Source: Campylobacteraceae bacterium
Lineage (GTDB): Bacteria; Campylobacterota; Campylobacteria; Campylobacterales; Sulfurovaceae
Direction of reading: 5' to 3'
Length of the DNA: 40,824 nucleotides
Assembly: GCA_027080995.1 (NCBI GenBank)
Contig: JALWNT010000083.1
Location: 1 to 40,824, forward strand
Below are positions 1-8,269 of this stretch, piece by piece. Position 1 is the first letter of the stretch; each line of letters begins with the position of its first letter. The notes under the pieces are model-generated. The model searched no databases, was not told where the DNA came from, and saw nothing but the letters and a program-made list of their open reading frames with translations. The translations under genes and the position numbers were made by a program.

Positions 1-4998
<4,998 letters not shown>

Positions 4999-5018
4999 TC
5001 ATCGTCCTTTACCGTGTG

Positions 5019-5040
5019 AAGGGGGCGGATGTCCCTTTTT
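5019..5040 (+). terminator. Possible weak terminator after rpoC
   Basis: A short stem AAGGG/CCCTT (5019-5023 with 5033-5037) is followed by a T-run to 5040, 20 nt after the rpoC stop. The stem is only 5 bp, so it may be leaky. It separates rpoBC from the rpsL promoter just downstream. Confidence 0.4.
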
Positions 5041-5062
5041 GTCGTTAGCATCTTGCTTTTTT

Positions 5063-5097
5063 GTTTTTAACTTCTTTTAATCAATTTTAACTATAAT
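5063..5097 (+). promoter_or_regulatory. Campylobacterota-type sigma70 promoter of rpsL-rpsG-fusA
   Basis: A perfect -10 hexamer TATAAT lies at 5092-5097. In place of a -35 box there are phased T-tracts (TTTTTAA, TTTTAA, TTTTAA) about 10 bp apart, which is the established promoter style of Campylobacter and Helicobacter sigma70. The predicted transcription start is near 5104, giving a leader of about 117 nt before rpsL. Confidence 0.75.
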
Positions 5098-5118
5098 TAC
5101 GGCCTATTTTTCCGTCGG

Positions 5119-5161
5119 TACACCTCGGCCGAGAGTTTTGTGAACTTTCGATCGAGGTGTA
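5119..5161 (+). promoter_or_regulatory. Structured rpsL leader hairpin (candidate r-protein leader)
   Basis: A 43-nt hairpin lies within the rpsL 5' leader. The outer stem TACACCTCG (5119-5127) pairs perfectly with CGAGGTGTA (5153-5161). A 2x2 internal loop follows, then an inner 8-bp stem CGAGAGTT/AACTTTCG with one G-U pair and the loop TTGTG. It begins about 15 nt after the predicted transcript start and ends 59 nt before the rpsL start codon, so it is in the mRNA. No T-run follows, so it is not a terminator. Autoregulation by a ribosomal protein is the obvious hypothesis but is not shown by sequence alone. Confidence 0.7.
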
Positions 5162-5220
5162 GCCACCCGGATTCGATTCTCGAGAGAGAAAAAAACATTT
5201 TTGAACGAAAGGATACTGAT

Positions 5221-5592
5221 TTGCCTACTATCAACCAGTTGATCCGCAAAGAGCGGAAAAAGGTGATCAAGAAATCGAAATCACCGGCACTCGTAAACTG
5301 CCCCCAGCGTCGCGGCGTCTGCACCCGCGTCTATACCACGACCCCCAAGAAGCCGAACTCCGCGCTTCGTAAGGTCGCAAAAGTCCGCCTTACCAGCGGC
5401 TTTGAAGTCATCTCCTACATCGGAGGAGAGGGCCACAACCTGCAGGAGCACTCCATCGTCCTCGTCCGTGGCGGACGGGTCAAAGACCTCCCCGGTGTGA
5501 AGTATCACATCGTCCGCGGTGCGCTGGATACCTCCGGTGTCGCTAACCGGAAGCGTGCCCGCTCCAAATACGGAACCAAGCGTCCCAAGTAA
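5221..5592 (+). CDS. rpsL: 30S ribosomal protein S12
   Basis: S12 is part of the decoding centre of the 30S subunit. The protein is 123 aa from a TTG start at 5221 preceded by GAAAGGAT. An upstream in-frame ATG would add 27 residues that no S12 has. It begins [14 protein letters not shown] and carries [10 protein letters not shown] and [11 protein letters not shown]. The streptomycin-determining lysines in [10 protein letters not shown] and [11 protein letters not shown] are both present, the wild-type sensitive form. The Asp in VKDLPGVKY is the residue methylthiolated by RimO, which is encoded at 19.6-20.9 kb in this same window. It leads the operon rpsL-rpsG-fusA. Confidence 0.97.
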
Positions 5593-5599
5593 GTTGGGA
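5583..5599 (+). other. Hairpin spanning the rpsL stop codon
   Basis: TCCCAA (5583-5588) and TTGGGA (5594-5599) form a perfect 6-bp stem. The loop GTAAG includes the TAA stop of rpsL, and ATTTTC follows. It could act as a weak attenuator or mRNA-processing site between rpsL and rpsG. Confidence 0.45.
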
Positions 5600-5636
5600 A
5601 TTTTCGGCCAGCGTCGCGGCCTCGCCGCCAATCCAG

Positions 5637-5667
5637 GCCCGCTCGTCCATCCTTCGTGGAGCCGGGC
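5637..5667 (+). promoter_or_regulatory. rpsL-rpsG intergenic stem-loop, possible S7 site
   Basis: GCCCG (5637-5641) pairs with CGGGC (5663-5667), and the stem can continue through CTC/GAG with small bulges to a loop around TCCTTCG. It lies in the 112-nt rpsL-rpsG spacer, the position where E. coli S7 binds the str mRNA to repress translation. No sequence homology to the E. coli site was established, so the role is inference. Confidence 0.35.
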
Positions 5668-5689
5668 TTGAGTAAATCGTTTCGATTGA

Positions 5690-6172
<483 letters not shown>

Positions 6173-6187
6173 GACCAAGGAAAGAAT

Positions 6188-8269
6188 ATGCCCAGATCAC
6201 ACCCTATCGAAAAAGTACGCAATATCGGAATCGCGGCGCACATCGACGCCGGGAAGACCACCACCACCGAACGGATCCTCTTTTACACCGGCGTCAGCCA
6301 CAAGATCGGTGAAGTCCACGACGGTGCCGCCACGATGGACTGGATGGAGCAGGAGCAAGAGCGCGGGATCACCATTACCTCCGCGGCGACCACCTGTGAA
6401 TGGAAAGGCGTCCAGATCAACATCATCGACACTCCGGGCCACGTCGACTTCACCATCGAAGTCGAGCGCTCGATGCGTGTCCTCGACGGCGCGGTCGCCG
6501 TCTTTTGTTCCGTCGGTGGCGTCCAGCCCCAGTCGGAGACCGTCTGGCGCCAGGCCAACAAGTACCACGTCCCCCGTATGGTCTTCGTCAACAAGATGGA
6601 CCGTACCGGTGCCGATTTCTTTGAGGTCGAGCGCCAGATCAAAGACCGCCTCAACGCCAACCCCGTTCCCATCCAGATCCCCATCGGTGCCGAAGAGAAC
6701 TTCAAGGGTGTCGTCGACCTCGTCGAGATGAAAGCGGTCATCTGGGACGACGATCAGAGCCTGATGGGTCAAAAGTACGAAATCGTCGACATCCCCGAAG
6801 ATTTGGTCGAACTGGCCGAAGAGTATCGGGAAAAGATGATCGAAGCAGTCGCGGAGACCAGCGATGAGCTTCTCGACAAGTACATGGAGGGCGAAGAGCT
6901 CACCAAAGAGGAGATCAAAGCAGGCCTCAAGCAGGGATGCATCGACTTGAGTATCGTTCCGATGACCTGCGGTACCGCCTTTAAGAACAAAGGGGTCCAG
7001 ACGCTTCTCGACGCGGTTGTCGACTATATGCCGGCTCCGACCGAAGTCCCCCCGATCAAGGGACAATACGAAGACGGCACCGAAGTTCTCGTCGAGTCGA
7101 CCGACAACGGCCCCTTCGCCGCGTTGGCGTTCAAGATCATGACCGACCCCTTCGTAGGGCAGCTCACTTTCATCCGGGTCTACCGCGGGATTTTGAACTC
7201 CGGTTCTTATGTCTACAACACCAGCAAAGATAAAAAAGAGCGGATCGGTCGTCTGCTGCGGATGCACTCCAACAAACGCGAAGAGATCAGCGAACTCTAC
7301 GCCGGAGAGATCGGCGCCGTCGTCGGCCTGAAGTATACGCTCACCGGTGATACCCTCGCCGACGAGAAAGACAAAGTCATCCTCGAGAAGATGGAATTCC
7401 CCGATCCCGTCATCTCCGTCGCCGTCGAGCCCAAGACCAAAGCCGACCAGGAGAAGATGGGTGTCGCTCTGCAAAAACTGGCGCAGGAGGATCCCTCTTT
7501 CCGTGTCACCACCGACGAAGAGTCCGGGCAGACCATCATCTCCGGAATGGGCGAACTTCACCTCGAGATCCTCGTCGATCGGATGATGCGGGAATTCAAG
7601 GTCGAAGCGGAAGTCGGCGCACCTCAGGTCGCTTACCGCGAAACGATCAAAGCTCCCGTCAACCAGGAGTACAAGTACGCCAAGCAGTCCGGCGGACGCG
7701 GACAGTACGGTCACGTCTTCCTCAAGATCGAGCCCCAGGAGCAGGGTGCCGGGTACGAGTTTATCGACGAGATCAAGGGTGGTGTCATCCCCAAAGAGTA
7801 CATCCCTGCCGTCGACAAGGGTATCCAGGAGGCGATGCAGCGGGGTATCCAGGCTGGCTACCCTGTCGAAGACGTCAAAGTCACTCTCTACGACGGAAGC
7901 TACCACGAAGTCGACTCGTCGGAGATGGCCTTCAAACTGGCCGGATCCATGGGCTTCCGTGAAGGAGCCAAGAAAGCCAACCCCGTCATCCTCGAGCCGA
8001 TCATGAAGGTCGAAGTCGAAGTCCCCGAAGACTATATGGGTGACGTCATCGGTGATATCAACAAGCGCCGCGGACAGATCAACGGAATGGGCGACCGTGC
8101 CGGCAACAAGATCGTCGACGCCTTCGTCCCTCTGGCCGAAATGTTCGGTTATTCCACCGACCTGCGTTCTATGACGCAGGGGCGCGCGACCTACGCGATG
8201 GAGTTCGATCATTACGACGAAGTTCCCTCCAACGTCGCCAAAGAGATCATCGAAAAGCGCAACGGATAA
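6188..8269 (+). CDS. fusA: Elongation factor G
   Basis: This 693-aa translational GTPase drives ribosomal translocation and, with RRF, recycling. The G domain shows G1 AHIDAGKTT (residues 17-25), the switch I region ending in [11 protein letters not shown]3 DTPGHVDF (81-88, with His85) and G4 NKMDR. The C-terminal domains IV and V follow, including [11 protein letters not shown] and the [18 protein letters not shown] block. The length is full. The start at 6188 has AAGGAAAG upstream. No tuf gene follows, unlike in E. coli but as in other Campylobacterota. Confidence 0.98.

Follow-up and report, generated by a model that had tools for sequence, protein, structure and literature searches.

Leaders ahead of rpsL form a multiform set, which includes terminator-type attenuators (PMC2965389) and the SAR11 rpsL motif (PMC2704228); we summarize them here from portions of the papers cited. 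The attenuators of Listeria, Xanthomonas, Pseudomonas and Rickettsia use alternative structures and end in a transcription terminator, and their authors stress that the forms have no common sequence or structure (PMC2965389). The SAR11 motif ('Candidatus Pelagibacter ubique') is located 5′ of rpsL and 3′ of rpoC and contains a covarying, variable hairpin within a three-stem junction, together with a near-invariant junction strand (J2-3), a conserved P3 loop and a P1 bulge. Its authors describe it as alphaproteobacterial and marine metagenomic only, with a ligand unknown to them (PMC2704228). In E. coli, the str mRNA carries an operator for ribosomal protein S7 between rpsL and rpsG, where control operates through RNA structure; outside E. 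coli, control of the str operon has been little studied, a gap that a review regrets for S7 (PMC10931766). A 2020 survey of ribosomal protein (r-protein) leaders reported lineage-limited, covarying RNAs before r-protein genes; in the portions of the survey considered here, no rpsL leader is among them, and its main text contains 0 occurrences of both Epsilonproteobacteria and Campylobacter (PMC7247131). Among the matches listed from the open-licence literature, none is an rpsL leader in Campylobacterota, which is weak evidence of absence.

Here, we describe a real and apparently undescribed structured leader RNA of the Sulfurovaceae, found at the head of the rpsL-rpsG-fusA operon. The window (the whole stretch of DNA analysed, 40,824 nucleotides of contig JALWNT010000083.1) belongs to a family, f1, that also holds records of Sulfurovum and Nitratifractor. 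NCBI taxonomy places both in Sulfurovaceae, Campylobacterales, and we take f1 to be this family. All features discussed below are on the + strand. The rpoC gene ends at 4998, and the operon follows with rpsL (ribosomal protein S12, 5221-5592), rpsG (S7, 5705-6172) and fusA (EF-G, 6188-8269), the latter two named from their sequences. A -10 box and the leader hairpin lie between rpoC and rpsL. The sequence-only reading of this DNA had seen a good promoter here; the -10 box of a likely promoter, TATAAT, is present at 5092-5097, but a two-hexamer sigma-70 scan of 4500-6000 found no promoter. Promoters of Campylobacterota often occur without a -35 box. The TTG start of rpsL (5221-5223), which the same reading had pointed out, is correct and constant, as it is used at 102/102 family loci with a recognised rpsL start; at 33 loci of other families, the starts are GTG (25), ATG (5) and TTG (2), with one not recognised. 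As the same reading suggested, this start may also restrict initiation.

The hairpin at 5119-5161 is the core of a larger leader RNA with a closing helix (P1), near-invariant unpaired bases and a possible alternative pairing (P4). The earlier reading had described a 9-bp stem, a 2x2 internal loop, an 8-bp stem and a 5-nt loop, with coordinates that are exact: TACACCTCG (5119-5127) and CGAGGTGTA (5153-5161) form the 9 perfect pairs of P2, GC (5128-5129) and AT (5151-5152) face each other in the internal loop, CGAGAGTT (5130-5137) and AACTTTCG (5143-5150) form the 8 pairs of P3, including one G.U, and TTGTG (5138-5142) is the apical loop. The exact outer-arm sequences of P2 occur at a single site in the 1.97 Mb genome. 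The region 5100-5190 folds at -37.4 kcal/mol, as compared to -24.6 +/- 3.1 kcal/mol for 200 dinucleotide shuffles (z -4.2; 0/200 as good). A match to the family covariance model spans 5104-5200 and begins with CUAUUUU (5104-5110), the probable transcript start, whose U-run is kept in most relatives. P1 is formed by UCCG (5111-5114) and CGGA (5168-5171), as seen in the MAFFT alignment and in family covariation. It is followed by an unpaired segment, UUCGA in the window (5172-5176) and UUCAAU in most relatives, in which UU is found in 93/93 aligned leaders and one A in 92/93. Folding predicts a small hairpin, UUCUC-GAGA-GAGAA (5177-5190), that is present in some relatives only, and the ribosome binding site, GAAAGGA, lies at 5207-5213. 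The family loci follow a common plan: TATAAT and a short U-run come first, and then a stem whose sequence is free and whose 3′ side usually ends in GGUGUAA. CC and (C)AGAUUCAAUUC, or a variant of it, follow, and lastly a ribosome binding site of the GAAAGGA type and TTG.

Pairing in this leader has been maintained by compensatory changes. Of the 13 genus loci, the 12 that are not truncated were aligned with MAFFT with no structural guidance and no fitting to a model (A1), resulting in 40 cells changed on both sides, compared with 14.9 in shuffles and at most 17 when the pairing was slid. A covariance model built from these 12 loci (R1) matched 62 family loci at the threshold used; an intermediate alignment (A2) held antisense matches, and the threshold was therefore set to exclude them, leaving the best 62 rows (A3). 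In these 62 family sequences, 337 cells changed on both sides (95.1 in shuffles), the covariation score was 0.686 (0.235 in shuffles, at most 0.158 when slid) and 90.6% of cells were paired (65.8% in shuffles, at most 53.1% when slid). Double changes were found at each of the 19 main-hairpin pairs. The total of 21 pairs with a double change is not exceptional, as 26/500 shuffles of A3 reach it. P1 is weaker than P2 and P3: double changes occur at 2 of its 4 pairs, and one of the 4 is unpaired in 15/47 scored cells (A3). At 34 loci in 33 genomes outside the model training, 118 cells changed on both sides versus 29.7, with 35 rows counted (A5), one of them an antisense row that was dropped from the strand and P4 tests. 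These further genomes were picked by their match to a second covariance model (R2), making this a test of pairing and not of frequency. The sequence-only reading had proposed a covariance model of relatives and a search for compensatory changes as the check on its central claim, a structured leader of the rpsL-rpsG-fusA mRNA, and both strongly support that claim. Sequence comparison demonstrates the structure, conservation, gene context and strand of the leader.

The element is widespread in the family and was found before rpsL. RpsL was located in 13/13 genus genomes, 106/120 family genomes and 194/199 order-wide genomes, from which upstream regions of 102 family loci and 33 loci of other families were taken. 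The models were given 100 of the 102 family loci; the two left out (L123 and L125) show the motif by eye. R2 matches 93 of the 100, with no match at L021, L024, L034, L067, L117, L119 and L124, among which L024, L117, L119 and L124 carry, by eye, what look like reduced or divergent copies. In a search of whole genomes with R2, 136/175 family genomes had a match at E <= 1 (79/90 of those of good quality), as did 13/13 genomes of the genus, so that the absence from close relatives named earlier as the outcome that would speak against the leader did not occur. The order-wide sample of 199 genomes gave 16 matches at E <= 0.05, 15 within the family and one in another family (G240, E 0.046) with no rpsL start nearby, while none of the 33 other-family rpsL loci scored better than E = 0.12. 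Among 40 further matched regions, 34 have an rpsL start just downstream, and the six without one have E values of 0.046 to 0.96; no rpsL is near the extra matches in G014, G041, G106 and G334 (E 0.35 to 0.96) or the match in G344 (E 0.25). In one genome (G324), the element is present on two contigs, each time ahead of an rpsL start. A motif-pattern search of a collection of genome contigs returned 95 stretches, of which 28 have an rpsL start within ~170 bases; among the matches listed (25 of the 28), 25/25 are from Campylobacterota. The 67/95 stretches without an rpsL start are expected of chance matches to a short pattern.

Reduction of the element can be seen within the family. It is reduced or not recognisable in L117, L124 and L067 (genus g11), L021 (g5) and L034 (g8), and in L117 and L124 what is left is a short hairpin and GATTTTATTC.

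The bases directly ahead of the P1 3′ arm (5168) can also pair with the 3′ strand of the P2 base. In the window, this alternative hairpin (P4, 5156-5167) reads GGUG-UAGC-CACC, with the GGUG portion of the P2 3′ arm doubling as its 5′ arm, which makes P4 and the P2 base mutually exclusive. The arms differ among relatives (GGU/GCC, GGU/ACC, GGAC/GUCC, GGGUU/AACCC, GGGA/UCCC and GCUG/CAGC). A P4 hairpin of <= -1 kcal/mol with a loop of 3 to 8 nt forms in 91/93 leaders, versus 23% of letter shuffles and 17% of 1455 upstream windows, and P4 is possible in 93/93 when loops of up to 9 nt are allowed. When right halves were swapped among 53 distinct segments, the mean for own halves was -3.33 kcal/mol versus -1.76 +/- 0.20 (0/1000 permutations as good). 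In the further genomes, P4 was found in 34/34, and 19 distinct segments gave -2.96 versus -1.79 +/- 0.27 (0/2000 permutations); the statistics of these permutation tests ignore shared ancestry. A first chimera test gave a mean of -1.83 versus -3.15 for own arms, and 66.7% of 7182 different-arm chimeras still formed a hairpin of <= -1 kcal/mol, since GG and CC are nearly constant. A fixed-column count on A3, where many rows are out of register for P4, gave no excess: 468/500 shuffles pair as well. The register-free tests support a two-state switch, and the fixed-column test does not. Forcing P4 costs a median of 6.7 kcal/mol (range 0 to 19.7) relative to the P2 fold. P4 is most reasonably viewed as an alternative state that may exist and that binding of a partner could favour.

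The leader has several points of likeness to the SAR11 motif, with which it shares the position 5′ of rpsL and 3′ of rpoC, the restriction to a lineage and a covarying, variable hairpin; the three-stem junction of that motif resembles the P1/P3/P4 form proposed here (PMC2704228). On comparison with the text description of the motif, the leader differs in that P3 directly adjoins P4 and the loop of P4 varies among leaders, and its junction form is a predicted one. The attenuators listed above also form alternative structures and differ in their terminator (PMC2965389), as none follows the stems here. An attenuator of this type was rejected for the leader: there is no terminator hairpin with a U-run, and no U-run after P2 or P1, so transcription attenuation is not a likely route. 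The lone terminator-like site within the leader, at 5115-5132, is a chance pattern and would interrupt P2. No Rfam 15 family reaches its gathering cut-off anywhere in the window, and the scores obtained are at chance level (e.g. 15.8 bits for Actino-pnp, against a cut-off of 47.7). The 2020 survey describes r-leaders that are comparable in being lineage-limited, covarying and placed before r-protein genes (PMC7247131).

A second conserved element, which the sequence-only reading did not mention, lies apart from the leader in the rpsL-rpsG spacer (5634-5691), ahead of the rpsG ribosome binding site. Sequence comparison, which took in the window, L003-L057 and L285-L304, shows the arrangement CAGG-stem-TTGAGTAAATC-loop-GATTGAAG, and the core pattern is present at 31/33 family loci, in 20/20 further family spacers and at 19/21 loci of other families. 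By eye, AGTAAATC..GATTG is similar to AGTAATC..GATCAG, a portion of the S7 site in the 3′ part of 16S rRNA, and the element has no Rfam match in the window. It occupies the position of the E. coli S7 site (PMC10931766). This element, common to Campylobacterales, is the probable S7 operator, and its presence makes S7 a less obvious candidate for the leader's ligand. If so, one family would have gained the leader as an additional device. The leader was rejected as an S7 operator of the E. coli type, as it sits upstream of rpsL and not in the rpsL-rpsG spacer; what the two have in common is the operon and control through RNA structure, which for the leader is predicted.

Two other pairings were considered and rejected. 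The 5′ U-run (UUUUUC) could pair with the ribosome binding site (GAAAGG), and can do so at nearly all loci, since each of the two is conserved on other grounds; the pairing is lost, by eye, in about ten Sulfurovum-type loci starting with CCAAAAAU, with no matching change. The leader segment UUCAAUU could form seven pairs with GAUUGAA of the spacer, and here the spacer stays GATTGAAG where the leaders change, with no covariation. R-protein leaders often, although not always, resemble the rRNA site of their ligand. Four leader segments compared by sequence with the 16S rRNA of a genus member showed no excess likeness; this reference was used as the window's own genome gave no 16S match.

The leader shares with r-protein leaders that it is a structured, covarying RNA upstream of r-protein genes; such leaders are also bound by an r-protein of their own operon, which lowers expression, and this is predicted for the leader here. 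It is very probably a control element of ribosome production and most likely an r-protein leader, and autoregulation of the operon through it is plausible. Our preferred reading, which we consider probable, is that this cis-acting leader RNA of the Sulfurovaceae tunes how the rpsL-rpsG-fusA mRNA is expressed, with an r-protein (S7 or S12) as its putative ligand. That the leader regulates, the protein to which it would answer and a role of P4 as a working switch are inferences. Comparison shows that P1 encloses the long P2/P3 hairpin and is followed by the unpaired UUCAAU-type segment, with the ribosome binding site and TTG start ~35 nt further on. The 3′ strand of the P2 base may re-pair as P4, forming a P1/P3/P4 three-way junction, a step that is less firmly supported. 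Excess S7 or S12 could then bind around P1, the junction and the unpaired segment and favour one of the two folds, and binding may either reduce translation initiated at the TTG or shorten the lifetime of the mRNA. Points against this reading are that the leader element does not overlap the ribosome binding site, that its sequence shows no likeness to 16S rRNA and that the probable S7 site lies elsewhere. The probable S7 operator would stay in the spacer, with the leader giving the first cistron a direct control of its own. A bolder version, which we put forward tentatively and regard as unlikely, places a two-state switch at the start of the str operon: the P2 base and P4, both co-evolving, would compete, S12 (or a signal other than S7) would set the balance, and S7 would act on the spacer. 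If true, this switch-type leader would be new to the phylum and perhaps the first that responds to S12.

Among other explanations, the leader might be a 5′ stability hairpin whose sole role is to shield the mRNA from decay, with no sensing function. A long, stable stem near the likely 5′ end, free to vary in sequence while its pairing is kept, would suit this role. However, such a hairpin needs neither near-invariant unpaired bases outside the stem, nor a closing helix with changes of its own, nor a co-varying second pairing, and we find this account doubtful. Somewhat less probable again is an RNA switch or sensor that responds, via P2/P4 exchange, to a signal other than an r-protein (e.g. 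a metabolite, a translation factor or another RNA). The competition of two pairings for one strand is consistent with such a sensor, as is the separate spacer site that S7 seems to own, but strong, locus-checked matches are found only before rpsL, as an r-protein leader would show, and no Rfam riboswitch family matches. A DNA operator, an inverted repeat bound as double-stranded DNA by a transcription factor, is very improbable. The dyad does lie just downstream of the -10 box, yet its stem sequence changes freely while the pairing is kept, and the mRNA strand favours G.U over A.C cells: 184 vs 40 in A3 and 98 vs 18 in the further set, both from alignments fitted to a covariance model that prefers G.U, and, less strongly, 28 vs 14 in the unfitted A1. 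Equal numbers would be expected at a strand-symmetric DNA site, which places the selection on the mRNA. A chance hairpin without function has nothing beyond the commonness of two-copy inverted repeats in its favour and is extremely unlikely given the fold z-score, covariation in three sets and presence throughout the genus.

The leader is an RNA of well-defined form that one family has retained and that was not seen in the sister families sampled, and its neighbour is an order-wide element resembling an S7 site. This raises the questions of what leads a lineage to place another control point on the same operon and which protein reads it, and the competing P4 pairing offers a clear two-state model.

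Variant leaders occur among the relatives. By eye, L097, L100, L104, L106, L110, L118, L121 and similar loci have CCAAAAAUC after the -10 box, versus the U-run CCAUUUUUC in most relatives. CCAAAAAUC is the reverse complement of AUUUUU and lengthens P1 at these loci (AAUCUG/CAGAUU), most of which also have an extra small hairpin inserted between GAUUCA and AAUUC (by eye). In another family (f16; L037, L048 and L135), inspection by eye shows a different short hairpin in the rpsL leader (e.g. AATACTCTA..TAGAGTATT) together with a shared CTACTGGAA stretch, which suggests that other lineages may have rpsL leaders of their own.
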